A stretch of 61,693 nt of DNA from Candidatus Gastranaerophilales bacterium (GTDB lineage Bacteria; Cyanobacteriota; Vampirovibrionia; Gastranaerophilales; Gastranaerophilaceae), in assembly GCA_944327275.1 (NCBI GenBank), contig CALVHB010000051.1:1-61693 (forward strand). Direction: 5' to 3'. The notes beneath the pieces are model-generated. The model was given only the letters and a program-made list of their open reading frames with translations, was not told the origin of the DNA and ran no database searches. A program made the position numbers and the translations under genes. Shown here one piece after another: positions 16,338-34,722 of the stretch. Numbering within the stretch: the first letter of the stretch is position 1; each line of letters starts with the position of its first letter.

Positions 16338-16343
16338 ATCAAT

Positions 16344-16372
16344 ATTGTAGCAAAAATACTGCTTCTTGTAAA
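16344..16372 (-). promoter_or_regulatory. Leaderless promoter of pilin-like gene
   Basis: On the - strand TTTACA, 17-base spacer, TACAAT, then six bases (ATTGAT) and the ATG. Confidence 0.6.
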
Positions 16373-16393: not shown

Positions 16394-16447
16394 CTATCCC
16401 GAAGTTTTAGGGGGGGGGGCAATCTCTGAGCTTCTTTTCCAAAACAT
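16394..16447 (-). CDS. Short leader ORF with C10 run
   Basis: ATG to TAG, 17 residues: MFWKRSSEIAPPPKTSG. A good ribosome site (GGAGGA) precedes the ATG, and a TTGACA-17-GATAAT promoter lies upstream. Proline codons come from a run of ten C's; one extra C would stop translation right after the prolines. It occupies the same place before its pilin-like gene as the MKKVSLSSISGGG ORFs at 29057 and 34653. Too short for a known family; a leader peptide is inferred. Confidence 0.45.
   Translation of the reverse strand: MFWKRSSEIAPPPKTSG
16410..16419. repeat. G10 homopolymer
   Basis: Ten G's on the + strand (C10 in the leader ORF). Two more runs of exactly ten are at 29086 and 34682, all before pilin-like genes. 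Confidence 0.9.
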
Positions 16448-16472
16448 ATGCTATCCTCCATTTTTTTACTTT

Positions 16473-16501
16473 ATTATCTATGCAATTTTACAATTTGTCA
16501 A
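16473..16501 (-). promoter_or_regulatory. Promoter of the C10 leader ORF
   Basis: Read on the - strand: consensus TTGACA, 17-base spacer, GATAAT. It overlaps the divergent promoter at 16487-16514. Confidence 0.7.
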
Positions 16502-16514
16502 TTTGTTATATTAT
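16487..16514 (+). promoter_or_regulatory. Leaderless promoter of small ORF
   Basis: TTTACA (16487-16492), 16-base spacer, TATTAT (16509-16514), then six bases and ATG 16521. Confidence 0.5.
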
Positions 16515-16520
16515 TTAGAT

Positions 16521-16682
16521 ATGATTATTTCAGAAATTATAAAAATATCTAAGCCAAATAATTTTGATAATTTATATATTGAAAATGCTCTCGAAAATTT
16601 AGGTATTGTACCTATTCGCTGGGCTATTGTTGAAATAAATAATGAAAATATTTCTGTCAGTGTCTCTTATGAAACTAATTAA
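16521..16682 (+). CDS. Small acidic 53-residue protein upstream of metK
   Basis: ATG to TAA, 53 residues, beginning MIISEIIKISKPNNFDN and ending NNENISVSVSYETN. It has a plausible amphipathic pattern and a central 'NLGIVPIRWAIVEI' that reads like a small beta-alpha unit. No ribosome site, but the -10 box is six bases before ATG, as for other probable leaderless genes here. I do not recognise it. It could be cotranscribed with metK through the structured leader that follows. Confidence 0.55.
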   Translation: MIISEIIKISKPNNFDNLYIENALENLGIVPIRWAIVEINNENISVSVSYETN

Positions 16683-16691
16683 TATATATTA

Positions 16692-16717
16692 ATACTTTAT
16701 TTGATTTTATAAAGTAT
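16692..16717 (+). promoter_or_regulatory. Hairpin between small ORF and metK leader
   Basis: ATACTTTAT-TTGATTTT-ATAAAGTAT, a 9-bp AT stem with no T-run after it. It may close the small ORF's transcript weakly or belong to the metK leader. Confidence 0.35.
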
Positions 16718-16803
16718 CTGATGTACACTTTTTACTAGTGATATTGCCGGGTCGGAATTAAAAACCTTACCGGCGGGTTGACGGTGATAGGGTTCGCCGG
16801 ACC
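16718..16803 (+). promoter_or_regulatory. GC-rich structured leader of metK (candidate riboswitch)
   Basis: A GC-rich patch in AT-rich surroundings. GCCGG (16746-16750) can pair with CCGGC (16770-16774); the same CCGGCG (16770-16775) can instead pair with CGCCGG (16795-16800). The two stems exclude each other, as in a switch. The second stem ends 12 bases before the metK ribosome site AAGGAG. No T-run follows, so control would be at translation. I cannot match it to SAM-I or SAM-III as I remember them. Ligand (for example S-adenosylmethionine) is a guess from the gene. Confidence 0.5.
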
Positions 16804-16830
16804 AAAATACAAATTAAGGAGAATTTTTAA

Positions 16831-18105
16831 ATGACACCAAGAAATTTTTTATTCACTTCTGAATCAGTTACAGAAGGACACCCCGACAAAGTTTGCGATC
16901 AGATTTCTGACGCTATTTTGGACGAATTTTTGACAAAGTACCCTCAATCAAGAGTTGCTGCTGAAACTACAGTAACTACTGGTATGGCGCTTGTATGTGG
17001 CGAAATTACTTCTGATTGTTATGTAGATATTCCTTCAGTAGTAAGAAATACTATTAAAAATATCGGATATTCTGGAGCTTCAGGTGGCGGATTTGATGCT
17101 GATACTTGTGCGGTTTTGACAAGCATTGATGAACAATCTTGCGATATAGCAGGCGGCGTTAATAAAGCTCTTGAAACTAGATCTGATAATGCTGATACTT
17201 CAGTTTCTGAAACAGAAAATATTGGCGCAGGAGACCAAGGTATTATGTTTGGTTACGCTTGTAATGAAACTCCTGAGTTAATGCCTTTACCTATCAGCTT
17301 GGCTCATAAATTATCATATAGATTAGCTCAAGTTAGAAAACAAGGAATTCTTAAATATTTAAGACCTGATGGAAAATCTCAGGTTACTGTTGAATATGTT
17401 GATGGAAAACCTTCAAGAATTCACACTGTGTTAATTTCAACTCAACATGACCCTGAAATTAACGGAGTTTCAGATAATTCAAAAGTTCAAGAAATTATAA
17501 GAAATGATATTAAAAAATATGTAATAGACTACGTTTTTGAAAACGAGGCAATAAAACTTGACAGTGAAACAAAAATTCTTGTTAACCCATCTGGACGTTT
17601 TGTTGTTGGTGGACCTCAAGGTGATGCTGGTTTGACAGGACGTAAAATTATTGTTGATACATATGGCGGTTATTCTCGTCACGGTGGCGGAGCTTTCTCC
17701 GGAAAGGATCCTACAAAAGTTGATAGATCTGCTGCTTATGCTTCTCGTTGGGTTGCAAAAAATATTGTTGCAGCTGGATTAGCTGAAAAATGTGAAATTG
17801 AACTTGCTTATGCAATCGGTGTTGCAGAGCCTATCTCAATTATGGTTGATACTTTTGGAACTGGTAAAATTTCTGATGATGAGATTTCTGCATTAGTTTC
17901 AAAGAACTTTGATTTGAGACCTGCTGCAATTATTAACCAGTTTGATTTGCGTGGCTTGCCAGCTAAAAACGGTGGTAAATTCTATCAGTTGTTGGCAGCT
18001 TACGGCCATATGGGCAGAACAGATATTGATGTTCCTTGGGAAAGGGTTGATAAAGCAGATGCTTTAAAATCAGCTTCTTGCTCTTGCGGATGTTGTTTAT
18101 CTTAA
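16831..18105 (+). CDS. metK: S-adenosylmethionine synthetase
   Basis: Makes S-adenosylmethionine from methionine and ATP. Signature residues: '[17 protein letters not shown]' at the N-terminus, the second signature '[12 protein letters not shown]' near residue 130, and the P-loop-like [19 protein letters not shown] near 280. 424 residues, slightly long because of a C-terminal tail ending [12 protein letters not shown], a cluster of four Cys in the last eight residues that could bind metal or be redox-active and is unusual for the family. AAGGAG precedes the ATG. Confidence 0.97.
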
Positions 18106-18114
18106 TATAATTAT

Positions 18115-18146
18115 AAAAAAAGCGATCGTAATGATCGCTTTTTTTA
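18115..18146 (+). terminator. metK terminator
   Basis: AAAAAAAGCGATC-GTAAT-GATCGCTTTTTTT: strong stem with T-run. Confidence 0.9.
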
Positions 18147-18201
18147 TAGCAAAAATTTTTATTTTTATGTTTTATACACTACAATTCAATAAGGAGATAC
18201 T

Positions 18202-18840
18202 ATGTTACCTGTTTTACCTCAAATAAGTCCAAAAAATGTAATGCCAAATCCGATAACAAGTTTTACACCCAATAGATACGTTCCTTTGTTGATGCCTAAT
18301 GATGCGATACATCCACAGGCTAGTATAATAGGCAATGTTATTATTGGTAAAGATGTTAATATTGCTCCTTTTGCTTCTGTCAGAGGGGATGAGGGTACTC
18401 CTATTTTTATAGGGGAAGGCTCAAATATACAAGATGGTGTTGTTATACATGGTCTAAAACATGGTAGAGTAAAACAGGATAATCAAGATTATTCTGTGTA
18501 TGTAGGAAAAGATGTGAGTTTAGCTCATCAATCTCAAGTTCATGGCCCTGCCAAAATTGGAGATAATGTATTTGTAGGGATGCAGTCTTTTGTGTATAAA
18601 TCTGAAGTTGGAAATAATGTAGTAATAGAACCTGCTGCGAAAGTTATTGGAGTGAAAATTGCAGACAACAGATATGTGCCTGCTGGTGAAGTTATAAAAA
18701 CTCAAGAACAAGCTGATAAATTACCTGTTATTACTAAGGATTATATAAACAAAGATATGAATCATGAAGTTGTTGAAGTTAACAAAGAATTGGCTTATTC
18801 ATATCCTGCAAATTATTATTTAGCCAGTTGGACTAATTAA
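18202..18840 (+). CDS. Gamma-class carbonic anhydrase-like hexapeptide protein
   Basis: 212 residues of left-handed beta helix repeats ('IIGNVIIGKDVNIAPFASVRGD' onward). The metal ligands expected of gamma carbonic anhydrases appear as His in 'VVIHGLKHGRV', 'LAHQSQVHGPA'. The domain resembles the N-terminal half of cyanobacterial CcmM, but there is no RbcS-like repeat, as expected without carboxysomes. Catalysis (CO2 to bicarbonate) is inferred from the ligands. Bicarbonate would feed the acetyl-CoA carboxylase encoded at 43-45 kb. AAGGAG sets the start; the 3' end overlaps the converging yibE/F gene by eight bases. Confidence 0.85.
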   Translation: MLPVLPQISPKNVMPNPITSFTPNRYVPLLMPNDAIHPQASIIGNVIIGKDVNIAPFASVRGDEGTPIFIGEGSNIQDGVVIHGLKHGRVKQDNQDYSVYVGKDVSLAHQSQVHGPAKIGDNVFVGMQSFVYKSEVGNNVVIEPAAKVIGVKIADNRYVPAGEVIKTQEQADKLPVITKDYINKDMNHEVVEVNKELAYSYPANYYLASWTN

Positions 18841-19972
18841 TATCAATTTTGTCTAATTTAATCTCGTTTTTATTTTTATGAGATTTTCTTTTTATTAAAA
18901 CCGCTGCGATTATTGCTGTTATGGGAACACAAGCAAGTATTGCTATGCTACCGATAAGTGCTGAAAGTATTTCTGTTGCAACTTGGTTGAGGTTAAAAAA
19001 TTTATTGACATCTATATTATTTGCTAAAAGAACCAAAGGTAGTGAGCTGCCAAGGTAGACCAAGATTAGAGTGTTTGACATTGTGCCTATTATATCTCTT
19101 CCAACATTCATTCCTGATTTGAAAAGTTGTTTTACTGATAGAGAATTGTCTGTTTCGTAAATTTCATTTATAGTGCTTGCTATTGATACGGACGTATCCA
19201 TCAAAGCTCCTAGTGCAGCAATAACCATTGAAGCAGAGAGTATTCCTGTAAAACTTAAATCGGGTCTTGCAGTGTATAAAAACATATTTTCTTCACCCGC
19301 AAATCCTGTTAAATGTGCAAAATATATTGCAAGCATTGAAAGAGCTCCTGCAAATATTAAACTTGAAGAGGTTCCAATAATTGCGGAAGAACTTTTGGAG
19401 TTAAATCCGCCAACAAGATATATTGTGATAATTGTTGATAATATTCCGACAAGAACAGAGGAAGCTATAGGGCAAAAACCGTTTAATATCATTGGCATTA
19501 GCATAAAGAATATTAAAGCTATTGTTGATATTATAGAAACTATGCTTGTGATCCCTTTTTTATGTCCTATTAAAATCAGCATAAAAAAGAATATCCCGGT
19601 AAACAAAAATATTTGGTTATCTCGTTTAATATCTGCTATAAAAAAATCTACATCTTCTGCAGTTGCAACTGTCTCAGAAACTGGTTCTACGTGTAAAATT
19701 ACTTTATCTCCCTTTGATAAATTTATATCATATGCAGGATTGCCGGTTAACATATTGTCAACTATCCTTTCTGAACCTTTAAATTGGCCTGATAGAACTT
19801 TAATTGTAACTTCTTGTTTTGTAGTTTCTGTTTGATTTATTTCATTTGTATCTTGATATTTTATTTCTTCTACAATTCCTACTTCAGATGGAAGTACTGG
19901 TTTTGTTTCATCTGCAAATATTGGGTTTATAAATCCAATTAGTGTTAAAATTGTTATTAATAATATTCTCAT
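18833..19972 (-). CDS. YibE/F family membrane protein
   Basis: 379 residues. Signal-like N-terminus (MRILLITILTLIGFINPIFADE), a periplasmic domain of about 100 residues with 'GDKVILHVEP', then eight or so membrane helices with the family's 'GHKKGITSIVSIISTIALIFF' and 'GALMDTSVSIASTINEI' stretches. Function of YibE/F proteins is not established; transport is suspected. I start at 19972 because GGAGAT precedes this ATG; an upstream frame to 20029 has no ribosome site and no signal sequence. Confidence 0.85.
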   Translation of the reverse strand: MRILLITILTLIGFINPIFADETKPVLPSEVGIVEEIKYQDTNEINQTETTKQEVTIKVLSGQFKGSERIVDNMLTGNPAYDINLSKGDKVILHVEPVSETVATAEDVDFFIADIKRDNQIFLFTGIFFFMLILIGHKKGITSIVSIISTIALIFFMLMPMILNGFCPIASSVLVGILSTIITIYLVGGFNSKSSSAIIGTSSSLIFAGALSMLAIYFAHLTGFAGEENMFLYTARPDLSFTGILSASMVIAALGALMDTSVSIASTINEIYETDNSLSVKQLFKSGMNVGRDIIGTMSNTLILVYLGSSLPLVLLANNIDVNKFFNLNQVATEILSALIGSIAILACVPITAIIAAVLIKRKSHKNKNEIKLDKIDIN

Positions 19973-20016
19973 AATATCTCCAATCCTTGTAAAAAGATTA
20001 CCATAAAAAATAAATT

Positions 20017-20045
20017 TTGAAATAATCACATTTATATGTTATAAT
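20017..20045 (+). promoter_or_regulatory. Promoter of pilin-like gene 20070
   Basis: TTGAAA (20017-20022), 17-base spacer, TATAAT (20040-20045): near consensus. Confidence 0.8.
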
Positions 20046-20069
20046 AGTTAATATTTATAGAGGAAGTAA

Positions 20070-20753
20070 TTGGGGGATTTTATATTGTTTTTAAATTTTA
20101 AAAGGAGCAAAGTTTTAGGTTTTACTCTAGCTGAAGTTTTGGTAACTGTTGGTATAATTGGTGTTGTTGCAGCTTTAACTATGCCAACATTAGTTCAAAA
20201 TCATCAAAGAAAAGTCTATGTTACTCAACTGAGAAAAGTTTGTACAGAGCTTGAACAGTCTTTTGTAAGGTACATAAATGACAGAAATGCCGTAAATTTA
20301 AGAGAAGCAGGTAATTTAACTACAACAGATGGTATTGCAAGTTTTTTTAACAGATACTTTAATGTTGTAAAAGAATGTAATGATAGCTTTTGTTTTACAG
20401 ATTATAAATGTTTAGATGGAGACTGTTACGGAGGGTATTTTAATACAGAAAGGTCAGTTAATCTATCATCAGGGACGTTAATAGGATTTAATGAAGCTGG
20501 TGTGGATAATTTATTTATTAACTTTCTTGTTGATGTTAATGGAGAACAAGGCCCCAACATCGCAGGTAGAGACATCTTTTTTATAACCGCAGATGTAAAT
20601 GGTAAGCTTGAAGATTTTGGTTATATGTTTGCCCAAATTGTTGGTGGTGGTCAAGATATTGATAGAGAGGATATATTCGAACAAGGTTGTGCAAGCCAAG
20701 GGCTTGGCTGTTATGGAAAAGTTGTATTAGACGGATGGGAAATGAAATACTAG
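20070..20753 (+). CDS. Type IV pilin-like protein
   Basis: About 227 residues from a TTG start with AGAGGAAG upstream. Leader to KRSKVLG, then [22 protein letters not shown] (prepilin site, Glu +5). The globular part has Cys-rich loops ('[19 protein letters not shown]'), the '[18 protein letters not shown]' motif and ends '[10 protein letters not shown]'. Unlike the three other pilin-like genes it has a normal promoter with a leader and ribosome site, and no G10 leader ORF. The 3' end overlaps ruvB by four bases, tail to tail. Confidence 0.87.
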
Positions 20754-21829
20754 TAGAATAAACTTTTTTGCTCGTTTATATCAATATTTTTGTAACCCAG
20801 ATGTCTGTATGTTGCAGGTGAAACTTTTCTCCCGCGAGGGGTTCTTTGTAGCAGACCAGCTTGGAGTAGGAAAGGTTCGCAAACATCTTCAATTGTTCTT
20901 ACGTCTTCCCCTATAGCTGCTGCTATTGTTTCTATTCCTACAGGACCTCCATCATATTTTTCAATAATGAGTTTTAGAAGGCTTCTATCTGTACTGTCTA
21001 GGCCGTAGTTGTCAATTTTTAAAATATCTAAAGATTTGTTAGCGATATCTTCAGTTATTCGTCCATCATGTTTTACCAGAGCATAATCTGCAACTCGTTT
21101 TACAAGTCTGTTTGCTATACGAGGGGTTCCTCTTGAACGCTTTGCGATTGCATGTGCTCCTTGTTCTGAAATTTCAATATTTAAAATTCCGGCAGTTCTT
21201 TTTATAACTTGTGCAAGTTCATCTTCTGTGTAGAATTCCAATCTATGTATTATTCCAAATCTATCTCTTAAAGGACCCGACAATTCACCTGCTTTTGTTG
21301 TTGCGCCAATGAGAGTAAATTTGGGGAGGGGAACTCTTAATGTTTTAACAGTTTGAGCTTTCCCTGTTGTCATGTCTAAGAAAAAATCTTCCATTGCTGG
21401 GTATAAAATTTCTTCTGCAACTTTGTTAAGTCTGTGTATTTCGTCAATAAACAGTATTTCTCCACCTTTTAAAGACATTAATATTCCGATTATATCTCTA
21501 GGTCTTTCAAGTGCAGGTGCAGAGGTTATTTTGATATCTACTCCCATTTGTTCTGCAATAACTCCTGCAAGTGTAGTTTTCCCAAGACCTGGAGGACCGT
21601 AAAATAAAAGATGGTCTAGAGGTAACTCTCTTTTTTTTGCAGCAGCAATAGAAATTTTTAAAGTTTCCTTGAGAGCAGTTTGCCCAATGTAGGTGTCAAA
21701 CGATTTTGGACGAATACAGTTTTCAAAATTTTTGTCATTTTCAAGGCATTCACATTTTAGAACAGAATGTTTTTTCTTTTCTGCTATATTTTTGCTCTTA
21801 AAATCATTGTCGTCTGCAATTATACTCAT
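20750..21829 (-). CDS. ruvB: Holliday junction helicase RuvB
   Basis: AAA+ motor that drives branch migration with RuvA. Walker [13 protein letters not shown], Walker [12 protein letters not shown], sensor [19 protein letters not shown] and the C-terminal winged helix '[15 protein letters not shown]' are present. 359 residues; the first about 35 (rich in Lys/Asp/Cys) extend beyond the usual N-terminus. GAGGAAAG precedes ATG. ruvA and ruvC are not in the window. Confidence 0.95.
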
Positions 21830-21897
21830 TGTCTTTCCTCAATATTTATGATATCATAAACTTATTAATTAGAACAGTTCGTTAAGAAGGAGAAGCT

Positions 21898-23067
21898 ATG
21901 AAAATATCAGAACGTTTAGAAAAAATCCCACCTTATTTGTTTGCGGAAATAGATAGAAAAATTGCAGAAGCAAAGGCAAAAGGTGTAGATATTATAAGTT
22001 TAGGCATTGGGGATCCTGACTCTCCTACACTGCAGCCAGTTGTTGATGAAATGCATAGAGCTATTGATAATCCGAAAAATCACGATTATCCGCCTTATAA
22101 CGGAACTGAAAAATTTAGAAAGGCAGCTTGCGGATGGATGAAAAAACGTTTTGGTGTTGAACTTGATCCGGACAAAGAAATGCTTGCTAATATTGGCTCA
22201 AAGGAAGCTATTGCACATATCTTTTTTGCATTTGTTGATAAAGGTGACTATACTTTAGTACCTGATCCGGGATACCCTGTGTATCATAATGCTACAATTT
22301 TTGCTGGCGGTACTCCTTATGAAATGCCATTGTTGGAAGAAAATGGCTTTTTACCTGATTTTGATAAAATCCCTGAAGATATTGCTAAAAAGTCAAAGTT
22401 GATGTTTTTAAATTATCCAAATAACCCGACAAGTGCAGTTGCGGACTTGGATTTCTTCAAAAAAGCTGTTGATTTCTGTAAAAAATATGATATATTACTA
22501 TGTTCTGATATGGCATATTCTGAAATGACATTTGATGGTTATAAAGCTCCATCTGTTCTTCAGGTAGAAGGAGCAAAAGATGTTGCAATTGAGTTTTATT
22601 CTCATTCAAAATCATACAATATGACAGGATGGAGAGTCGGTTTTGTATGCGGTAATGCTGATGCTGTAAAAGCTTTAGGTACAATAAAAAATAATATCGA
22701 TTCAGGAACTTTTAAAGCGATTCAAGATGCAGCAGCTGTTGCTTTTGATGTTGATGAAAAATATATTATTGATTTGAATAAAATGTATCAAGAACGTAGA
22801 GATGCGGCAGAAGAAGGGTTTAGAGAACTTGGTTGGGATATAAAACCTTCAAAAGCAACATTTTATCTCTGGCTGCCTGTTCCAAAAGGTATGTCTTCCG
22901 AAGAATTTGTTACTGTGATGTTGGAAAAAGCTCATGTGGTTGTTCCTCCAGGAAATGGTTATGGAAAATATGGAGAAGGCTACTTTAGAGTTGCTCTGAC
23001 AAAAGATGTTGATACAATTAAAGAATGTATTAGAAGAATGAAACAGGCAGGAATTAGGTATAATTAG
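21898..23067 (+). CDS. dapL: LL-diaminopimelate aminotransferase
   Basis: PLP-dependent class I/II aminotransferase. The start 'RLEKIPPYLFAEIDRKIAEAKAKG' and 'LGIGDPDSPT' are typical of DapL, which converts tetrahydrodipicolinate to LL-diaminopimelate in one step for lysine and peptidoglycan; this route is shared by cyanobacteria, chlamydiae and plants. The PLP lysine lies in 'SHSKSYNMTGWRVGF' (about residue 236); 'NYPNNPT' binds the cofactor. 389 residues, full. AGAAGGAGAAG precedes ATG. A broader aminotransferase role is possible. Confidence 0.88.
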   Translation: MKISERLEKIPPYLFAEIDRKIAEAKAKGVDIISLGIGDPDSPTLQPVVDEMHRAIDNPKNHDYPPYNGTEKFRKAACGWMKKRFGVELDPDKEMLANIGSKEAIAHIFFAFVDKGDYTLVPDPGYPVYHNATIFAGGTPYEMPLLEENGFLPDFDKIPEDIAKKSKLMFLNYPNNPTSAVADLDFFKKAVDFCKKYDILLCSDMAYSEMTFDGYKAPSVLQVEGAKDVAIEFYSHSKSYNMTGWRVGFVCGNADAVKALGTIKNNIDSGTFKAIQDAAAVAFDVDEKYIIDLNKMYQERRDAAEEGFRELGWDIKPSKATFYLWLPVPKGMSSEEFVTVMLEKAHVVVPPGNGYGKYGEGYFRVALTKDVDTIKECIRRMKQAGIRYN

Positions 23068-23077
23068 TTCCTAATAA

Positions 23078-23106
23078 TTGCTTAAAAGCTGGTAGGATGG
23101 TATAAT
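23078..23106 (+). promoter_or_regulatory. Leaderless promoter of the zinc-ribbon/TPR gene
   Basis: TTGCTT (23078-23083), 17-base spacer, TATAAT (23101-23106), six bases, then ATG 23113. Confidence 0.65.
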
Positions 23107-23112
23107 TTTCAT

Positions 23113-26100: not shown

Positions 26101-26628
26101 GCAAAAATTACAAAATTGCATCAATTAGAATTGTTCGCAGATTTATTAATTGGTTATGCATATATGCAATTAGGTTCTTATAAGAAAGCAGAATCGATTG
26201 TATATAAAATAATTAAAACTACTAATTCAAACGGAATGACTACATTATTATATGTGGCTTGGTTTGTTATGGGTGAATTGAATTTAAAACAACACAAATA
26301 TGATGTCGCATTTGGCATTGTTAATAATTCATTGATTCAGTTGGAAAAAAATAACATAACAAGTGAATATCTTTTAATGTTATTTAAATATAGTATGTAC
26401 AAGATCATGATGTTTAAAAAACAATATGACATTGCTGATATATGTATAAATCATGCAAAGTACATAGCAGCTAAGTATGGTATAATGTTTAATTTTGATA
26501 CAAATGCAGAACATTACGCAACTGTTGAACAAGATCAGATGGCTTTTGACAGTGTTGAAGATAATTTAAACGATGTCCAGTGTGAAGATAATTCTAAAAA
26601 TTCAGTAGTAGAGGAGAGTGAAGAATAA
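23113..26628 (+). CDS. Large zinc-ribbon, degenerate cyclase/ATPase and TPR protein
   Basis: 1171 residues. Residues 1-75 hold four zinc-ribbon pairs (CPKCGYE, CPNCKK, CPICRTV, CHNCGK and more). About 85-200 reads like a decayed class III cyclase-type alpha/beta domain. About 330-600 looks like an AAA_16/STAND-type ATPase: a Walker-B-like VIFIEDFDKID is present but the expected P-loop position reads KGIVAIKAHEMYRPYS with no GKS/T, so nucleotide binding is doubtful. From about 700 to 1130 it is helical with TPR-like repeats. Overall plan matches the predicted-ATPase/adenylate-cyclase scaffolds, probably a signalling scaffold. Ends one base into glgA's ATG (TAATG), so coupled to glycogen synthesis. 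Confidence 0.75.
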   Translation: MECPKCGYEIDDKAMVCPNCKKVLKLVCPICRTVNDSNTCKKCGYVIISKCHNCGKINQTINKKCRKCGFDTEKSVIMNESNSDDFVILTIDFPNIDEIKNILGSVKLLNKFKVNLDKIILEYTKSVKLRRQIIGSTYVIRFDKDYTFNSSADSAVKGAIELLNKITAMNCKLTQKKNSTVRCNMFLLKRSLDSDPNNLDSGFNISLLNNISKKKNDKILNTFQVLVDDSVSSVLGSDYHLSPLNSVLVNNEMEMFYELDLREFVKVEYPVEEEDEVEIPNFVQNMLIEQDKLDGEALNNLSSTDSDAIYDIETINFDEINSEFMRVENVDVLFHVLNKFQTTPKGIVAIKAHEMYRPYSLKVLNTLSDTGKFNNIISITCYDEMKYSPYSFFRDLVSAIFEYTVSQKLFYQNDFSMFKSVDPDGLIRDLIMLQKRENQNNEDTRYVYFDIFLTLLQVIPKTVIFIEDFDKIDTSSYDVLKFLFGAFEQLDISFLITYSKDFSLHKDCHFLLSKPYYTEISLKPTPFEKLIENNKIYYRNILNNFYFHRIAKYACGSSLFIDIAIQYLIESGVFAADDDSIEMINPKTIIIPSNLNRLVARRLNLLKDDVDAMKFLTSVILLGTRVDMATVDSLEYKNKTEIIEKLSNMGYMYQFNNCIYFPNYNLIRDNLLQTINKIYLKDVAKDLFEKVFNDDMPSPVKAYLHGLLGDVESERKQWELLADINLSLGDFSSYLNCTNKILELLDKNTDPEQAEDVQAYKLKLYEDISNNLYDYVPDKTSEIAEETLKNLEATKDTDKIILLCNKMINGALGTGDYNHALELTYKVLALLPYSSLNPSDPTFNKYFFLMSLVHIQILFNVGALKDSLDIGYKVLNFVNDSTLPMLKPDYFTDEDFRALVIDSVGYAALANVLLLFGNVEQFLEIVRKDLSGVPKSYDLFVALQDLMHGRTISVEGLNVDENDRFGMVVLNIINAFLLSDGDYNIFAEHIYKAKISAKITKLHQLELFADLLIGYAYMQLGSYKKAESIVYKIIKTTNSNGMTTLLYVAWFVMGELNLKQHKYDVAFGIVNNSLIQLEKNNITSEYLLMLFKYSMYKIMMFKKQYDIADICINHAKYIAAKYGIMFNFDTNAEHYATVEQDQMAFDSVEDNLNDVQCEDNSKNSVVEESEE

Positions 26629-28070
26629 TGAAAATTTTATTTGCAGCAGCTGAAGTAGCACCTTTTTCAAAAGCAGGGGGACTTGCTGATGTTGTAGGAA
26701 GCTTGCCTAAATACATTGAGAAAGATGCAGAAATAGCGATTTTTACTCCTTTACATGGACTTATTGATGTTAATAAATATGGTATTAAAGAACTTGAAAA
26801 TTCCGAAATGTGGTTAACCTTTAACGGAATGGGACATAAGTTTAAATTATTCATGTGTAAATTACCGGGGTCTGATATAAACGTATTTTTTGTGCACAAT
26901 GATTGGTATTTTACCTGTTTTAAAGAAGTATATCCAAAATGGCTGGATCCTAGATATGAACATGAACGTTATATAGCTTTTTCTTTAGCTACTATGGAGT
27001 ATGCAAAATTGTTAAACTTCCGTGCTGATGTAATTCACGCTAATGATTGGCATACTGCTATGATACCTGTATATCTTCACAGTAATTATAGATTTGATGA
27101 TTTTTGGGAGAACACAAAAACTGTATTTGAAATTCATAATTTAGCCTATCAAGGTGTGTGGTTTGAAGATGTTCTAGATTTTGCTAATATGCGCAAAGAT
27201 ATTGTCTATAATGAATGGGGTGTAGAGCATTTTGGAAAAGTAAATTGGATGAAAGGTGCAATAAATTATTCAGATAAGGTTGTTGCAGTATCACCAACTT
27301 ATGCTAAAGAGATTTTAACCGGTGAATACGGTGAGGGTATGGACTATACTCTTAGGATGAATCAACATAAACTTGTTGGTATACTTAACGGAATTGATTA
27401 TGATGTTTTCAATCCTAAGTCTGATAAGAATATTGTAAAAAATTACGATGTAAAGACTTGTTCAAATAAAGAGGAAAATAAAAAATACCTCTGCGATTAT
27501 TTTGGATTAAAGTATGATCCTCAGCGACCTCTATTTGCGATGGTTTCAAGACTTGTTGGTCAAAAAGGTATCGATCTAATTCGTCAGTGCGAAGGAGAAT
27601 TGAAAAATATAAATGCCGATTTTATATTCCTTGGTAGTGGTGAAAAAGATTATGAAAATCTTTTAATTTGGTTGTCAAATAATTCTTCAAATATACGTGC
27701 ATATATTGGATATAAAGGAGATTTGGCTAACAAAATATATGCAGGCAGTGATTTTTATTTGATGCCATCTAGATTTGAACCTTGTGGTTTGAGTCAGTTA
27801 ATTGCAATGCGATATGGAACTTTACCTGTTGTGCGAGCAACAGGCGGTCTTGAAGATACAGTTGTTGGCTATCCAATGGAAAATTCTACTGGATTTAAAT
27901 TCTGGGGGTATAATGGTTGGGATATGATGCAGGCTATTAATTGTGCTATCGGGGTATATGGTGATAAATATACTTTCAACGCTATGAGAAAATCTGCCAT
28001 GGATGCTGATTTTTCTTGGAAAAAGAGTTCGAAGTTATATCTTGATATGTATAAAAGTCTTTCTAATTAA
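26628..28070 (+). CDS. glgA: Glycogen synthase (ADP-glucose type)
   Basis: GT5 glycosyltransferase adding glucose from ADP-glucose to glycogen. The N-terminal ADP-glucose site KAGGLADVVGSLPK and the C-terminal 'MPSRFEPCGLSQL' with catalytic Glu are clear; 480 residues, full length. Its ATG shares a base with the stop of the large TPR protein, so translation is coupled; no promoter of its own is seen. A scaffold-glycogen link is inferred only from this overlap. Confidence 0.95.
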   Translation: MKILFAAAEVAPFSKAGGLADVVGSLPKYIEKDAEIAIFTPLHGLIDVNKYGIKELENSEMWLTFNGMGHKFKLFMCKLPGSDINVFFVHNDWYFTCFKEVYPKWLDPRYEHERYIAFSLATMEYAKLLNFRADVIHANDWHTAMIPVYLHSNYRFDDFWENTKTVFEIHNLAYQGVWFEDVLDFANMRKDIVYNEWGVEHFGKVNWMKGAINYSDKVVAVSPTYAKEILTGEYGEGMDYTLRMNQHKLVGILNGIDYDVFNPKSDKNIVKNYDVKTCSNKEENKKYLCDYFGLKYDPQRPLFAMVSRLVGQKGIDLIRQCEGELKNINADFIFLGSGEKDYENLLIWLSNNSSNIRAYIGYKGDLANKIYAGSDFYLMPSRFEPCGLSQLIAMRYGTLPVVRATGGLEDTVVGYPMENSTGFKFWGYNGWDMMQAINCAIGVYGDKYTFNAMRKSAMDADFSWKKSSKLYLDMYKSLSN

Positions 28071-28077
28071 TTTAAAC

Positions 28078-28105
28078 TTGTCAAAAATTTTCTGTAGGGC
28101 ATACT
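28078..28105 (+). promoter_or_regulatory. Leaderless promoter of EamA gene
   Basis: TTGTCA (28078-28083), 16-base spacer, CATACT (28100-28105), then six bases and ATG 28112. Confidence 0.45.
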
Positions 28106-28111
28106 GTTGTT

Positions 28112-28996
28112 ATGGAAAATGCTTTACGTAAGGATTATTTAAAATTACATGTGTCAGTTTTGTTAGCTGGGTTTACCGGTATATTTGGAAAACTTATTAC
28201 ACTGAATGAGGTTCTTTTAGTGTGGTATCGGTTGTTTTTTTCTCTGGTGATTTTTTACTTATTATTGCTAATTTATAGGAAAGTTCCAAAAGATTCTCTC
28301 AAAGATATTACTAAGATTTCTTGTATCGGGGCTCTTTTAGGCCTTCATTTTTTATTATTTTTTGCAAGCATAAAGTATGCAAATGTATCTGTAGGAGTTG
28401 TTTGCTATTCTCTTGTTGGATTTTTTACTGTGATATTTGAGCCATTGCTATGTAAAAAGAAATTGTCTTTAATTGAATTGTTTTACAGTCTTATAGCAGT
28501 TGTTGGCATAAGTTTAATATTTAACATTGATACTCATTATCGTTTTGGTATAATTCTTGGGGTTTTATCTTCTGCTGTATTTGCTATTTATACTATTTTG
28601 AATAAAACGGTTGGAGAAAGTCGAAATGTTAAAAGTCTCCTCTTATATGAACTTTTTGGAGGGACCTTATTTGTAAGTATGGTTATCCCATTTTTTCTTT
28701 GGTTTGGAAATGTTGAGTTTGTATTACCATCTATTACTAATATTTTTTATCTTTTTATACTTGTATTTTTTTGTACTATCGGTCTTTATATTTTACATAT
28801 TCAAGTATTAAAAACAATTCCGGCATTTACTGTGAGTTTGTGTGGTAATCTAGAGCCTGTTTACGGGATTCTGTTAGCAGTTATTTTTCTTGGAGAAGCA
28901 AGAGAATTGTCATTAACTTTTTTTATAGGAATGTTTTTAATCCTTTTATCTGTTTTTTTACAAACTGGAAGTTCAAAAAAAGTGTCTAATGCTTAA
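28112..28996 (+). CDS. EamA/DMT-family transporter
   Basis: 294 residues with ten predicted membrane helices in two five-helix halves, the EamA (drug/metabolite transporter) plan: 'VSVLLAGFTGIFGKLI' and 'LLLYELFGGTLFVSMV' mark the repeats, and 'LCGNLEPVYGILLAVIFLGEA' is the conserved C-terminal signature. Substrate unknown (amino acids or metabolites in relatives). No ribosome site; probable leaderless start. Confidence 0.88.
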   Translation: MENALRKDYLKLHVSVLLAGFTGIFGKLITLNEVLLVWYRLFFSLVIFYLLLLIYRKVPKDSLKDITKISCIGALLGLHFLLFFASIKYANVSVGVVCYSLVGFFTVIFEPLLCKKKLSLIELFYSLIAVVGISLIFNIDTHYRFGIILGVLSSAVFAIYTILNKTVGESRNVKSLLLYELFGGTLFVSMVIPFFLWFGNVEFVLPSITNIFYLFILVFFCTIGLYILHIQVLKTIPAFTVSLCGNLEPVYGILLAVIFLGEARELSLTFFIGMFLILLSVFLQTGSSKKVSNA

Positions 28997-29056
28997 CTTT
29001 ATTTTTTTTTATTAATATGATATTATAGATTTGTGATATTTAGAAAGGAGCAATAT

Positions 29057-29104
29057 ATGAAAAAGGTTAGCTTGTCAAGCATTTCGGGGGGGGGGCATTT
29101 CTAG
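29057..29104 (+). CDS. Short leader ORF with G10 run
   Basis: 15 residues, MKKVSLSSISGGGHF, from ATG to TAG with AAAGGAG upstream. The three glycines are encoded by the G10 run. The same first 13 residues are encoded at 34653. GGAGC at the ribosome site and GCTCC just after the stop (29106-29110) could pair and hide the site. Lys-Lys start and Gly-Gly-Gly end recall secreted peptide leaders, but I have no proof it is more than a regulatory leader. Confidence 0.5.
   Translation: MKKVSLSSISGGGHF
29086..29095 (+). repeat. G10 homopolymer
   Basis: Ten consecutive G's inside the leader ORF. Confidence 0.9.
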
Positions 29105-29126
29105 GCTCCATACAAGGATTTAGGAC

Positions 29127-29154
29127 TTGTAAAAATAGCAAAATAAAGTATAAT
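29127..29154 (+). promoter_or_regulatory. Leaderless promoter of pilin-like gene
   Basis: TTGTAA (29127-29132), 16-base spacer, TATAAT (29149-29154), six bases (AGTGAT), ATG 29161. The same layout is kept at 34723-34750. Confidence 0.65.
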
Positions 29155-29160
29155 AGTGAT

Positions 29161-29880
29161 ATGAAATATCACAATAAAAGGTTTGGTTTTACATTAGCAG
29201 AAGTTTTAATAACTTTAGGAGTAATAGGTGTCTTAGCTGCATTGGTTATACAGAATATTGTGGTAAGTTATCAGAAAAAAGAAACGGTTGAAAAACTAAA
29301 AGTTGCTTTTACTCTTTTTTCTGGTGCATTAGAAAGAGCTAGAAGTGATTATGGGGATGTATATATGACTTTTGATATGTATAAAGATTTCTATCTATAT
29401 CGTAAGATATATATTGATCCTTACCTTACAGGTGTTCAACCATATAAAGGGAAACCTTTAAAAGTTTATTCATCTAATGGGTCTATTAATACATATTTTG
29501 GTTACACAAATAATGACATGTGTTTGCCTAATGGCTTTTGTTATATATTTAAGGGGAATGGAGGGTATTTCCCTGATACAGATTATGAATTTATGAATTA
29601 TTTATATCTTATAGTAGATTTGAATGGTCCTAAAAAACCAAATAGAGCTGGACGAGATATATTTTATTTTGCAATAAATGTTCCATTTAGAGAAGGTGGA
29701 ACAGCAAAGAAACTCCCATTATTGTCAGGATACGTTTATGCAACATCTGAAAGAACGACGAGGGAAGAAATGATAAAAAATTGTCGCGGAGACACTGTGG
29801 GATGGAGTGCAGGCTCAATGTGTACCCTACTAATAATGAATGATGGATGGGAAATTAAAGATGATTACCCTTGGAAATAG
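29161..29880 (+). CDS. Type IV pilin-like protein (G10 leader type)
   Basis: 239 residues. MKYHNKRFG leader, then FTLAEVLITLGVIGVLAALVIQ (prepilin site, Glu +5). The helix end 'LVIQN' departs from the usual ALTMP. The body has 'DLNGPKKPNRAGRDIFYF' and ends 'MNDGWEIKDDYPWK', as in the gene at 15651-16337. Cys residues near 120 and the C-terminus may form disulphides. No ribosome site. Its N-terminal codons are shared almost base for base with 34757. Confidence 0.88.
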   Translation: MKYHNKRFGFTLAEVLITLGVIGVLAALVIQNIVVSYQKKETVEKLKVAFTLFSGALERARSDYGDVYMTFDMYKDFYLYRKIYIDPYLTGVQPYKGKPLKVYSSNGSINTYFGYTNNDMCLPNGFCYIFKGNGGYFPDTDYEFMNYLYLIVDLNGPKKPNRAGRDIFYFAINVPFREGGTAKKLPLLSGYVYATSERTTREEMIKNCRGDTVGWSAGSMCTLLIMNDGWEIKDDYPWK

Positions 29881-29883
29881 TAA

Positions 29884-29912
29884 TTAAAAAGAGACTTTAT
29901 GTCTCTTTTTAA
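29884..29912. terminator. Bidirectional terminator, pilin-like / typA
   Basis: AAAAAGAGAC-TTTAT-GTCTCTTTTT between the converging genes; it reaches the typA stop. Confidence 0.85.
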
Positions 29913-31708
29913 TTATATATTTTTTTAGTTAAATCAGCTTTTCTGATTCTTACATTTTCAGGAGTTATTTCAACAAGTTCATCATCTCCAATGTATTCCA
30001 TACATTCTTCTAGAGACATTTCTTTATGAGCTTGTAGGGTTACCATAACATCAGCTGTTGCACTTCTCATGTTGGTTAATTTCTTAGTCTTACAAATGTT
30101 GACTACGATATCTTGCGGTTTGTTGCATTCTCCTATAATCATTCCTCTATATACCTTAGTCTTAGGAGTTACGAAAAATACTCCTCTATCTTCGTATTGA
30201 GCTAATGCGTAAGGTATAGCTTCACCTTGTTCATGAGCAATAATTGAGCCGTTTCTTTGACGAGGAATATCTCCGGCATAAGGTCTGTATTCCAAATATG
30301 TATGATACATGATTCCTTCTCCGCGAGTCATTCTAATAAATTCACTTCTAAATCCTATTAGTCCTCTTGCAGGGATGTGGAAAACCATTGTAGTACGACC
30401 TTTGGCATTATTCATTTCCTTCATTTCAGCTTTTCTTCCAGAAAGACGGTCTATACAGCTTCCTGCGTAACCTTCAGGAACATCTACAATAAGATTTTCA
30501 TATGGTTCACAATGTTGTCCGTCTATGTTTTTGTAAATTACTTCAGGTTTGGAAACTTGGAATTCATATCCTTCACGGCGCATTGTCTCGATCAATATTC
30601 CAAGATGTAACTCTCCTCTGCCAGATACTCTAAATACATCAGTCGAGTCAGTATCTTCTACTCTCAAACTTACATTTTTTTCAAGTTCGTCATACAATCT
30701 TTTTCTTAATTGTCTTGAAGTTACAAACTTTCCTTCTGTTCCGGCAAAAGGACTGTCATTTACTGAAAAATTCATTTGCAAAGTAGGTTCATCAACTTTT
30801 ATTAAAGGTAAAGGTTGAGGGTTTGCTAAAGAACAGATGCTTTCTCCTATTTGAACATCCGCAAATCCTGCAATCCCAACAATATCGCCTGCAAAAGCTT
30901 CATCAATTTCAACTCTGCCTAAATCGTGGAATCCAAAAAGTTTTGTAATCTTTCCTTTTTCTTGAGAACCATCTGCATGAACTACACATACTTGTTCTTG
31001 AGATTTAACAGAACCGTTTTCTATACGTCCTATAACAATTCTTCCTACATATTCGTTATAATCAAGAGTTGTAGCTCTGAATTGGAACGGTTTTGAAGAA
31101 TCACATTTTGGAGGCTGAATATTTTCTAAGATACAGTCAAGTAAAGGTACCATATCTTTTCTTTCATCTTCTAAATCTTTTATTGCAAAACCGTTTAAGC
31201 TGCTTGAGAATATAAACGGAAAGTCTATTAAATCTTCTCTGTCAGTAAGTTCTGTAAATAAATCAAATACTTTATCAAGAGCAGTAAAAGGCTCAGCAGC
31301 AGGTTTATCAATTTTGTTGATTACTACTATAATTTTAAGTCCTAATTCAAGTGCTTTTGACAGTACAAATCTGGTTTGCGGCATTGGTCCTTCTGCAGCA
31401 TCCACAATAAGTAGAGCGCCATCAACCATTCCAAGTACACGTTCTACTTCACCTCCAAAATCAGCGTGACCTGGGGTGTCTACGACGTTAATTTTTGTGT
31501 TTTTGTAATTAATTGAAATGTTTTTTGAAAGGATTGTAATTCCTCGTTCTCTTTCCAAATCGTTACTATCTAACACGCGTTCCTGAACTTGTTGGTTTGC
31601 TCTGAATGCTCCTGCTTGTTTCAATAAACAGTCTACAAGTGTAGTTTTCCCGTGGTCTACGTGAGCAATAATTGCTATATTCCTAATATTTTCGTTTTGA
31701 GTTGTCAT
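29909..31708 (-). CDS. typA: Ribosome-associated GTPase TypA/BipA
   Basis: Translational GTPase of the EF-G/LepA group that helps 50S assembly and stress growth. [12 protein letters not shown] (G1), RGITILSKN (G2), [11 protein letters not shown] (G3), NKIDKPAA (G4); C-terminal domain with '[22 protein letters not shown]' specific for TypA. 599 residues, full length. CAGGGA precedes ATG. Not part of an operon. Confidence 0.96.
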
Positions 31709-31785
31709 AATTCCCTGCCATTTATAAATTGTTTAGTGTAATATTTACACTCATATTTTATATTAGTAATAATAAATTTTCAAGA

Positions 31786-33186
31786 TTAATGTGTATTTTT
31801 GTTAGGCTTGTAAGCTATGTATGCAAAAGTAAGACAGGCAAGCCCAAATAGTATTCCAAAGCACATTGTAGTTCTGTAAGAAGATAAAAATGCTAAATCA
31901 TATACTTTGCCATTTTCTATAAAAATATTTCTAAATGTTTCAAATAATGTTATAGTTACTGCCACCCCAAGAATATTTCCCATATTTCTTGATAAAGCCA
32001 ATATCCCAGAAGCTATTCCGACTTCGTATTTTGGAACACTTGTCATAATTGCATTATTGGAAGGAGACTGGAATAATCCGTTTCCTATTCCCATGAGTCC
32101 GGAGGCAAAAATGATTTGCCACATTGCAACATTTTTGTTGTATATAGTGAATAGTAAAAGTGCAATGCAGTATAGAATCGGACCTGCTATTGTGAGATAC
32201 CTGCTTCCGTATTTCCCGGATAATCTCCCTGCGATTGGTGCTATTACTGATAGAGTAACAGAATATGGTAATATCAATAAACCTGTTACAAGTGCATTAT
32301 ATTTAAGAATTTCTTGTAAGAAAAATGGTAATAATATGCTGTTAGTGTACATTGCCATATAAGAAGTCATAACTGCCAGATTACCATAGGTAAAAGGTTT
32401 TATTTTAAACATTGAAAAATCGATTAAAGGGTAGTTGATTTTGTGGTCTCTGATATAAAATAGTATTCCAAATATTAATGTAATTATGCCCAGAGAAATT
32501 ATTTTTAAAGAGTTCCACCCCCAGCTGTGCCCTTCTGAAATTGCAAGTAAAAGAGCGAATAAACTTATTGTAAAATATATAAATCCTCTGTAATCAAATT
32601 TGAACCTTTTAATATCTATTTTTGCATGGTGAGGAAGAACTCTATAGGCATAATAAGCTCCTAACAGAGCTACAGGGATGCAAGGGATGAATACAGAATG
32701 CCATCCAAATGAATTTATTAAAATCCCTCCTAAAGCAGGACCGCTCATTCCTCCGATTGCGACCAAACATCCATTTAGTCCAAGAGCTTTCCCTCGTCTT
32801 TCATTTTTAAAAATGGTTGCGATAATTGCTTGAGCATTAGATAACATAATTGAAGCGCCAAGAGCTTCAAGACATCTATATGCTATAAGTAATTCAAAAT
32901 TTGCTGCGGTTGTATTCAAAAATGCACCAAGTGCAAAGACTCCAAAGCCTACTGAATATAACTTATTTTTAGGAAAAATATCGCCAAGTTTCCCGAAAAA
33001 TGGCAAAAATACCGTAAGCACAAGCATATAGGCAATCATTACCCACTGAATTTGCCCCATTGTAACATGTAAATCTACAGACATTGGATAAAGAGCAAGG
33101 TTTACAGTGGTAGAATCAAGCATGGCAATAAAATTGCCGACAGCAGTGATTACAAACATTGTCCATTTAATTTCTTTTGTGCTCAT
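31786..33186 (-). CDS. MFS transporter, DHA2-like (14 TM)
   Basis: 466 residues with about 14 membrane helices. 'DSTTVNLALYPMSVDL' in TM1 and 'GKLGDIFPKNKLYSVGF' (motif A) place it in the DHA2 drug:H+ antiporter family (EmrB/QacA-like). Probable efflux of toxic compounds; substrate unknown. No ribosome site; TAAAAT lies seven bases before ATG, so leaderless start is possible. Confidence 0.9.
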   Translation of the reverse strand: MSTKEIKWTMFVITAVGNFIAMLDSTTVNLALYPMSVDLHVTMGQIQWVMIAYMLVLTVFLPFFGKLGDIFPKNKLYSVGFGVFALGAFLNTTAANFELLIAYRCLEALGASIMLSNAQAIIATIFKNERRGKALGLNGCLVAIGGMSGPALGGILINSFGWHSVFIPCIPVALLGAYYAYRVLPHHAKIDIKRFKFDYRGFIYFTISLFALLLAISEGHSWGWNSLKIISLGIITLIFGILFYIRDHKINYPLIDFSMFKIKPFTYGNLAVMTSYMAMYTNSILLPFFLQEILKYNALVTGLLILPYSVTLSVIAPIAGRLSGKYGSRYLTIAGPILYCIALLLFTIYNKNVAMWQIIFASGLMGIGNGLFQSPSNNAIMTSVPKYEVGIASGILALSRNMGNILGVAVTITLFETFRNIFIENGKVYDLAFLSSYRTTMCFGILFGLACLTFAYIAYKPNKNTH

Positions 33187-33204
33187 AGTTTTAATTTTAT
33201 CATT

Positions 33205-33230
33205 AAAAAATTCCCTATTAAGGGAACTTT
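33205..33230 (-). terminator. glmU terminator
   Basis: On the - strand TTCCCT-TAAT-AGGGAA followed by TTTTTTAA; it lies between glmU and the MFS gene. Confidence 0.75.
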
Positions 33231-33240
33231 TATATAATGT

Positions 33241-34521
33241 TTACTTTCTGTTTTTTACCCAATTTTCAAGTATTCTTAATGGGGCTCTCGTAATTCCAAG
33301 TGCCCATTCGCCAATGTTTTTAGTGATAACACTTCCTGCTCCGATATTTGTACCTTCCCCAATTTCTACAGGTGCTACAAGCACAGTATTAGAACCGATT
33401 TTTACATTATCCTTTAAAATTGTTTTACTTTTTGTTTTTGTAATCGGATCGTAATTTGCAGTAATAGTGCCGGCTCCGATGTTTATATGCGCACCTAGTT
33501 CTGCATCTCCAATATAGCTTAAGTGCCCTGCATTTGTATTATGGTCAATTTTAGCTTTTTTTACTTCTACAAAGTTACCTATTTTGCAGTTGTCAGATAT
33601 TTCAACATCGCCTCTAAGGTGAGCACAAGGACCGATTTTACAGTTTTTACCGATTTTATTTGTGCCTTCAATATAAGTTGACGGATAAATTATTGTATCT
33701 GCTCCAATTTCGGTATCTTCAGAAATCCAAGTAGATGAAGGATCTACAATTGTAACTCCATTATCCATTAATGAATTCAACTTTCTTTCATTCATTATTT
33801 TTGTTGCAGTTGCAAGGTTCGAACGAGAATTAATACCGTAAATTTCATCACTATTTTCTAAAATATACGCGTTAACGTTGAGCTTATTCTTTTTCCCCCA
33901 AGCAATAATATCTGTAAGGTAATATTCACCTTGTGCATTGTTACTTGTTAACTGAGAAAAAGCAGGTTTGATTTTGCCCCAGTTAAGACAATATATTCCT
34001 GCATTTACTTCTTTTACAGCTTTTTCATCAGGAGTTGCATCCTTTTCTTCGACAATACATTTTAGGGAATTATCAGTATCTCTTATTATTCTTCCATAAT
34101 TTGTAGGGTTTTCAAAAATTGTGCTCATTACAGTTAAATCTGAATTCTTAGAGTTGTGGTACTCTACAAATTGTTTCAAAGTGGCTTCTGTAATTAATGG
34201 AGTATCTCCGCACAATATAATAACCTGACCTTCAAAATCTTCTAATTCGGGGCATACCATCGATACAGCATGTCCTGTTCCTAATTGTGGAGATTGCAAA
34301 ACCGTTTTTGCCGATTCATAATTTTTTTCAATAAACTCGGTTACTTCTTCTGCGTGGTGTCCTACTATTACAAAAGATTCATTTACTATATTTTTTACGT
34401 TGTCTAAAACATATCCAAGTAAAGGCTTTTCAAATATTTTATGTAAAACTTTTGAAGTATTAGATTTCATTCTAGTACCTTTACCGGCTGCTAATATTAC
34501 GGCTTTGATTTTTTGTTCCAT
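33241..34521 (-). CDS. glmU: Bifunctional GlmU (GlcN-1-P acetyltransferase / uridyltransferase)
   Basis: Makes UDP-GlcNAc for peptidoglycan and lipopolysaccharide. N-terminal nucleotidyltransferase 'VILAAGKGTRMKS' (about 9-21) and 'LCGDTPLI'; C-terminal hexapeptide-repeat acetyltransferase with 'GHLSYIGDAELG' and 'GAGTITANYD' near 330-360. 426 residues, slightly shorter than the E. coli protein (456) but with both domains. GAGAGGG precedes ATG. Confidence 0.95.
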   Translation of the reverse strand: MEQKIKAVILAAGKGTRMKSNTSKVLHKIFEKPLLGYVLDNVKNIVNESFVIVGHHAEEVTEFIEKNYESAKTVLQSPQLGTGHAVSMVCPELEDFEGQVIILCGDTPLITEATLKQFVEYHNSKNSDLTVMSTIFENPTNYGRIIRDTDNSLKCIVEEKDATPDEKAVKEVNAGIYCLNWGKIKPAFSQLTSNNAQGEYYLTDIIAWGKKNKLNVNAYILENSDEIYGINSRSNLATATKIMNERKLNSLMDNGVTIVDPSSTWISEDTEIGADTIIYPSTYIEGTNKIGKNCKIGPCAHLRGDVEISDNCKIGNFVEVKKAKIDHNTNAGHLSYIGDAELGAHINIGAGTITANYDPITKTKSKTILKDNVKIGSNTVLVAPVEIGEGTNIGAGSVITKNIGEWALGITRAPLRILENWVKNRK

Positions 34522-34590
34522 ATTCCCTCTCCAATAATCTTTTTCTTCGTTAATTTTACTATTTTAAAAAATTAGTGTCAATTTAAAAAT

Positions 34591-34619
34591 TTGAAAATTG
34601 AGTAAAATCATGTTATATT
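34591..34619 (+). promoter_or_regulatory. Promoter of second G10 leader ORF
   Basis: TTGAAA (34591-34596), 17-base spacer, TATATT (34614-34619). Confidence 0.7.
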
Positions 34620-34652
34620 AATATGGTTGTACAATTTAAAAAGGAGCAATAT

Positions 34653-34694
34653 ATGAAAAAGGTTAGTTTGTCAAGCATTTCGGGGGGGGGGTAA
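34653..34694 (+). CDS. Short leader ORF with G10 run, second copy
   Basis: 13 residues, MKKVSLSSISGGG, stopping (TAA) directly after the G10 run. AAAAAGGAGC precedes ATG; GCTCC follows the stop and can pair with GGAGC. The run length puts the stop in frame right after the glycines; a run one base shorter or longer would read through into another frame. Confidence 0.5.
   Translation: MKKVSLSSISGGG
34682..34691 (+). repeat. G10 homopolymer
   Basis: Third run of exactly ten G's in the window. Confidence 0.9.
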
Positions 34695-34722
34695 CTCTAA
34701 GCTCCATACAAGGATATAGGAC

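Follow-up and report, generated by a model that had tools for sequence, protein, structure and literature searches.

Ten-base G/C tracts between leader and prepilin in Gastranaerophilales: candidate slipped-strand phase-variation switches resting one base out of frame

A stretch of 61,693 nucleotides (nt) from Candidatus Gastranaerophilales (contig CALVHB010000051.1; "the window" below is this whole stretch, and its genome is called G000) raises the question of why three pilin-like genes should each be preceded by a short leader open reading frame (ORF) with exactly ten consecutive G or C. As a sequence-only reading of the window had held, runs of this length are unexpected: the window contains exactly three G/C runs of 8 nt or more, each 10 long (plus-strand G at 16410-16419, 29086-29095 and 34682-34691), and its nine overlapping G8 matches compare with 0.18 expected, a count that none of 100 shuffles reached. 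We consider it probable that these tracts are slipped-strand phase-variation switches of type IV pilins, off at ten bases and on at eleven or eight.

The evidence that carries this answer is the reading-frame relation between leader and pilin. Loci were selected for a prepilin motif at most 600 nt downstream of the tract and for a Shine-Dalgarno (SD) site and start codon upstream, open to the tract; starts were assigned by a spacing-aware choice, and the frame relation between leader and pilin was ignored. The resulting 161 loci (102 G-type, 59 C-type) form a mixed sample, drawn from the tracts retrieved from G000, from portions of the relatives G004, G013 and G021, from individual loci in further genomes, from motif scans (including L127-L159), and from loci picked for tract lengths of 9, 10 and 11. 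Among the ten-base loci with a pilin and a start, 104 of 117 need one more base to bring leader and pilin into one frame, while 8 need none and 5 need two; permutation of the spacers over the same loci gave a mean of 40.4 (sd 5.1) and a maximum of 59 in 10,000 permutations. The pattern persists when each combination of type, leader length and spacer length is counted once (of 87 distinct combinations, 74 need one more base, 8 none and 5 two), and it holds across the three codon phases of the G-type leaders and the opposite orientations of the two types. The spacer is open in this same frame: in spacers of at least 60 nt (n = 103), stop codons make up 15 of 5,713 codons in the pilin frame vs. 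425 of 5,638 and 559 of 5,677 in the other two, and 98 of the 103 are stop-free in the pilin frame vs. 1 and 1 in the others. From the tract to the FTLAE stretch of the pilin, 87 of 156 loci (five loci containing N were left out) have no in-frame ATG, and 62 have no ATG, GTG or TTG.

An unselected 797-kb stretch of G042, a relative in the window's genus, shows the same relation. It contains 65 tracts of at least 8 nt, 58 of them ten long. Of these 58, 46 have both a pilin and an assigned start, and every one of the 46 is a single base short of the pilin frame, with the frame open; the other 12 ten-base tracts have no such pilin-and-start assignment. Pilin tracts of other lengths in this stretch (four of eleven and one of eight) are all five in frame. 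An in-frame SD site and start of their own are found at only 2 of 47 ten-base pilins vs. 21 of 23 tract-free pilins (leaderless-type starts not counted), and none of the 47 ten-base pilins is shorter than 120 residues. In a separate scan, a tract lies within 700 nt of 52 of the 75 pilins of the stretch and is absent at 23. These tract-free, short-leader prepilins share with the tract loci the SD site, the start and a GFTLAE-type N-terminus; they differ in that no tract lies within 700 nt and that 20 of the 21 SD-preceded starts stand 12-36 nt before FTLAE, with one at 72. Since one added base would join leader and pilin at 104 of the 117 ten-base loci of the mixed sample and at 46 of 46 in G042, the slippage-based switch is the best supported of the several jobs that the sequence-only reading had proposed for the runs.

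At the three window loci, leaders, ribosome sites (GGAGC, GGAGC and GGAGG) and stops were found in the sequence as that reading had described them. The features are as follows.

29047..29051, plus strand: GGAGC ribosome site of leader 1 (sequence)
29057..29104, plus strand: leader ORF 1, MKKVSLSSISGGGHF, the off-frame reading at ten G (sequence and frame reading)
29086..29095, plus strand: G10 tract 1, with flanks TTTC..CATTTCTAGGC that fit the genus motif (run scan, motif comparison)
29096..29187, plus strand: spacer 1, 92 nt, without stops in the pilin frame and containing the leaderless-type promoter (frame reading, promoter scan)
29149..29163, plus strand: TATAATAGTGATATG, leaderless-type promoter and second start of pilin 1 (0 mismatches)
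29161..29880, plus strand: prepilin-type gene 1, 239 residues from the internal start, FTLAE from 29188 (ORF, PF07963)
34643..34647, plus strand: GGAGC ribosome site of leader 2 (sequence)
34653..34694, plus strand: leader ORF 2, MKKVSLSSISGGG, the off-frame reading at ten G (sequence and frame reading)
34682..34691, plus strand: G10 tract 2, upstream flank TTTC, downstream T rather than C (run scan)
34692..34783, plus strand: spacer 2, 92 nt, without stops in the pilin frame and containing the leaderless-type promoter (frame reading, promoter scan)
34745..34759, plus strand: TATAATAGTGATATG, leaderless-type promoter and second start of pilin 2 (0 mismatches)
34730..35488, plus strand: prepilin-type gene 2, 252 residues by the first ATG, with the start equivalent to that of gene 1 at 34757 (ORF, PF07963)
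16455..16459, minus strand: GGAGG ribosome site of leader 3 (sequence)
16394..16447, minus strand: leader ORF 3, MFWKRSSEIAPPPKTSG, in C-type orientation (sequence and frame reading)
16410..16419, minus strand: C10 tract 3 on the coding strand, with a TAA right after it that closes the joining frame (run scan, frame reading)
16335..16349, minus strand: TACAATATTGATATG, leaderless-type promoter and start of pilin 3 (1 mismatch)
15651..16337, minus strand: prepilin-type gene 3, 228 residues (ORF, PF07963)

That a pilin-like gene with a leaderless promoter follows each leader was borne out, since the prepilin N-terminal methylation motif (PF07963) scores above cut-off in all three window pilin proteins and the leaderless-type promoter and start TATAATnnTGATATG is present at all three, with 0, 0 and 1 mismatches (TATAATAGTGATATG twice, TACAATATTGATATG once). 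The sequence-only reading had also stated that a one-base change alters the end of the leader peptide, which is correct, and had missed that one extra G at locus 29057 or 34653 would join the leader in frame to the pilin. At locus 16394 the frame that would make this connection ends at the TAA directly after the tract, i.e., a length change would open the pilin frame at two of the three window loci and the third is closed; this third locus has probably decayed or is driven by its internal start. The internal leaderless-type starts at the other two loci may likewise allow pilin expression independent of the tract, judging from the sequence. The internal start codons of pilins 1 and 2 each overlap a perfect inverted repeat (GTGATAT-GAA-ATATCAC, at 29156-29172 and 34752-34768), a possible operator. 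The same leaderless-type promoter also belongs, at 35513-35527, to a tRNA methyltransferase-like gene (ORF 35510-36580), and with up to two mismatches TATAATnnTGATATG has 17 matches in the window vs. 7.15 expected.

A run-length count over 33 genomes of the genus, a check that the sequence-only reading had suggested, finds the runs genus-wide with ten dominant: 1,621 runs of ten vs. 148 of nine and 150 of eleven when the genome rows are summed. With C on both sides, the same genomes hold 1,458 runs of ten, 95 of eleven and 79 of nine, the latter two figures counted by eye from row listings. G000 itself has 26 G/C runs of at least nine (24 of ten, one of nine and one of twelve); a start was assigned at 22 of its ten-base loci, each of which lacks one base, and its single nine-base locus lacks two. 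Four of the 33 genomes (G012, G023, G039 and G045) have no ten-base run, and among 15 sampled genomes of other genera 9 carry a run of at least nine, with never more than 10 overlapping matches per genome. Large pilin repertoires mostly accompany tracts among the eight genomes searched for PF07963 (matches at E up to 1: 55 in G000, 107 in G002, at least 150 each in G004 and G042; 18, 23 and 10 in G012, G023 and G045), the exception being G039, with 100 matches and no ten-base tract. Near-identical tract-bearing leaders occur in G000 at C24:15, C24:905 and C40:69, at or near contig ends, which suggests recent pilin duplication that breaks the assembly.

The tracts also share a DNA motif, which reads TC-G10-CA..TTCT.AGCTT on the G strand both where that strand is coding (100 distinct loci) and where it is anticoding (59 distinct loci); because the motif is the same in either orientation, its role may lie at the DNA level. 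The tract begins about 28 nt past the start codon in both G-type and C-type leaders, both of which have a ribosome site, and leader length is 21-36 nt in 142 of the 161 loci (counted from lists). G-type leaders meet the tract in all three codon phases (31, 22 and 15) and encode glycine there, while the C-type leaders (59 of 161) encode proline. This, together with off-frame peptide ends that vary by locus, speaks against the secreted glycine-ending peptide that had been among the proposed jobs; a G-quadruplex site, another of them, fits poorly with a coding strand that carries C in the 59 C-type loci, and a single G10 is in any case short for an intramolecular quadruplex. The leaders of L039, L127, L157, L186 and L188 carry in-frame inserts that add a second FTLAE-like stretch (e.g., FTLAEGATHV...RRAAFTLAEV) and lengthen the prepilin leader while the pilin frame is kept open. 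The wider motif occurs on at least 113 stretches; the 80 named ones include Candidatus Gastranaerophilales, Melainabacteria assemblies and "Fusobacterium sp. CAG:439", and unrelated genomes that match the loose pattern are probably chance matches. Among viral contigs scanned for the motif, 7 stretches matched.

Tract length does vary between relatives. Of ten matched tracts of G042 and G004 (flanks 80-99% identical), eight are ten bases long in both, one is 10/11 and one 10/9. Three proteins, P0058, P0059 and P0060, have an identical 276 residues from just past the tract, and the leader of P0060 is in another frame: it fits, in 18 of 19 codons, the leader DNA of P0053 (a related pilin, 88% identical over that stretch) shifted by one base, so that differing tract lengths would be needed, as judged from protein letters rather than DNA. 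In G002, one C-G10-C site was found; its tracts of nine, ten and eleven bases number 5, 12 and 15, and there are at least 41 of twelve or more, as counted in 100 of 114 rows. These tracts (L327-L366) are longer, scattered in length, and located at pilins and many other genes, a classic-looking set within the same genus.

Tracts with the same TC..CA flanks are also found in unrelated genes. Of 36 ten-base tracts in fetched relatives (free of N) that had no pilin assignment, 28 could be placed in an ORF under a loose rule, and of these 16 are in frame as called, 6 need one base and 6 need two. Where at least 50 codons of the ORF flank the tract on either side, 10 of 12 are in frame as called (3 of the 10 are G004 copies of G042 genes), and the remaining two, L221 and L227, need one and two bases, respectively. 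Examples in frame at ten bases are L172 (3446-3455) and L400 (16066-16075), in a glycosyltransferase-like ORF, and L428 (8437-8446), in another long ORF; these genes are probably phase-variable and resting on.

Under the hypothesis that we favor, i.e., slipped-strand phase variation, translation would start at the ribosome site and start codon of the leader, upstream of the tract; at ten bases, the leader would soon terminate and the pilin would be silent or low. The gain of one base would let the leader run, mostly free of stops, into the prepilin N-terminus and would thereby incorporate it into the prepilin. Such length changes most likely arise by replication slippage in living cells, given the double-stranded, orientation-free motif, the existing length variants and the scattered lengths in G002. 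Ten would be the resting state because, by analogy with Bifidobacterium breve (PMC9187656), it is the greatest length that stays quiet, eleven being unstable; any one cell would thus display only a few of its many pilins, and which ones would change.

Several observations weigh against this hypothesis. Eleven-base pilin loci in the mixed sample are in frame in only 14 of 23 cases (3 need one base and 6 need two), and nine-base loci need two bases in 15 of 18 cases and one in 3 (the three remaining loci of the sample have tracts of 8, 12 or 13 bases). G000 has no run of eleven and no in-frame pilin tract. Most G-type pilin loci read in G002 are one base too long: of the 22, 15 lack two bases, 3 lack one and 4 are in frame (the sample was chosen for long tracts, and one closed C9 match was dropped). 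A leaderless-type internal start is present, by a loose pattern, at 35 of the 161 loci, those of the window included, and the intact bodies of all 47 off genes of G042 are also compatible with steady expression by recoding. Hypermutable tracts do not usually show so sharp a peak as the one at ten bases, and slippage by itself does not account for that peak. Finally, MutL was found in 31 of 33 genomes, and slippage would have to act despite mismatch repair; loss of mismatch repair as the cause was rejected on the same count.

The main rival is programmed recoding, in which the tract is fixed at ten and every pilin is synthesized at a constant low level, through RNA polymerase adding one base or the ribosome slipping back by one at G10 or C10. 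We regard this as unlikely, and yet much of the evidence is shared with it: the length is nearly fixed, the shift needed is nearly always one added nucleotide (equivalent to a -1 ribosomal shift), a fixed slippery run with an open shifted frame is what the loci present, and the pilin bodies at 47 of 47 ten-base G042 loci are intact. What weighs against it is that the double-stranded motif is the same in both orientations, so that the RNAs differ (G10 and glycine vs. C10 and proline), that the ten-base tracts deep in other genes are mostly in frame as they are, that most of the G002 loci deviate in the opposite direction, and that tract length variants exist.

It is also conceivable, although improbable, that a dedicated factor reads TC-G10-CA-n-TTCT-n-AGCTT in either direction and holds or resets the tract at ten, with single bases added or removed on demand; this would be a site-directed one-base DNA switch that parks the pilin repertoire one base out of frame.

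Alternatively, the G10 motif might be a recombination or gene-conversion site, a crossover point for swapping pilin leaders or bodies, comparable to the guanine-rich site at pilE of Neisseria. The genes of a large paralogous family carry one double-stranded motif near their 5' ends, used in both orientations, and G000 has the near-identical leader copies described above; both observations would fit such a site. We nevertheless find it very unlikely, since free exchange of leaders that meet the tract in three codon phases would break frames, and since tracts with the same flanks are also present in unrelated genes.

A leader-peptide attenuator, in which tract length moves the leader stop and so alters a terminator or a hairpin over the ribosome site before a pilin with its own start, has a published counterpart in pil1 of Streptococcus gallolyticus (PMC3894217). 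The sequence-only reading had proposed it and had pointed out that GGAGC at the ribosome site and GCTCC after the stop could pair in two loci; both sequences are present at the two plus-strand window loci and do pair in their folds. Over the 64 ten-base G-type loci, pairing is the same with own and shuffled partners (6.23 vs. 6.23 bases), i.e., a conserved alternative structure over the ribosome site, or any locus-specific pairing of that site with the sequence after the tract, was not found. The conserved feature is instead an open fused frame through the spacer, and 45 of the 47 ten-base G042 pilins have no downstream in-frame SD site and start, which makes the attenuator highly improbable on the evidence of pairing and frame, no search for terminators having been made. 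Barely credible, finally, is an assembly artefact with true tracts of eleven that were under-called, which would bring nearly all pilins in frame, given that the deep tracts in frame as called speak against systematic under-calling, that runs of 9, 11, 12 and more are called as well, and that the same frame offset appears in contigs from several projects.

If the phase-variation hypothesis is correct, these uncultured bacteria would have one of the larger repertoires of on/off surface genes known to us, with most of its members parked one base from expression. The tracts would then offer a direct test case for how tract length is held evenly at ten and for surface variation, and would leave a contrast to be explained between pilins that rest off and deep tracts in other genes that mostly rest on. 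The annotation of the group would also gain from the frame rule, since several database proteins of the family start inside or after the tract. A search exhaustive for the terms found no publication joining Gastranaerophilales and phase variation, and no description in the top-ranked literature, subscription journals being mostly outside reach, matches a genus-wide prepilin array at one length, one frame offset and one orientation-free motif. Homopolymer phase variation is a known kind of switch; what is unusual here is the scale, the uniform length, the orientation-free motif and the shared frame offset.

The homopolymer contingency loci of Campylobacter and Neisseria are poly-G tracts in surface-related genes whose translation is switched by frame, and both the tract and the on-lengths vary by gene. 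In contrast, one length and one frame offset dominate here across genes and species. In pil1 of S. gallolyticus, phase variation acts through a repeat in a short leader before the pilus genes and relies on GCAGA repeats and a terminator (PMC3894217), whereas the leader at the present loci would be incorporated into the prepilin. The closest likeness is with the sortase pili bbr_0113 and bbr_1889 of B. breve UCC2003, and the earlier statement that nothing known describes the arrangement was too strong in view of this pilin G-tract. In that study (PMC9187656), a G10 or G11 tract stands between the pilin body and an upstream ORF that carries the signal, expression is off at the annotated length, and slippage joins the two, so that, as is proposed here, a tract splits a leader ORF from a pilin and rests in the off state. 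In the same text, G10 is much steadier than G11 (about 93% of the sampled population was G10 at one locus, and a G11 locus was strongly mixed), the main productive change is the loss of one base, and neither a shared flanking motif nor use in both orientations is noted in the portion available to us (PMC9187656). The difference is thus between two loci in one strain, encoding sortase pili and turned on mainly by losing one base (PMC9187656), and the prepilin-type genes of Gastranaerophilales, with dozens to more than 100 tracts in many genomes, which would be turned on by gaining one base.

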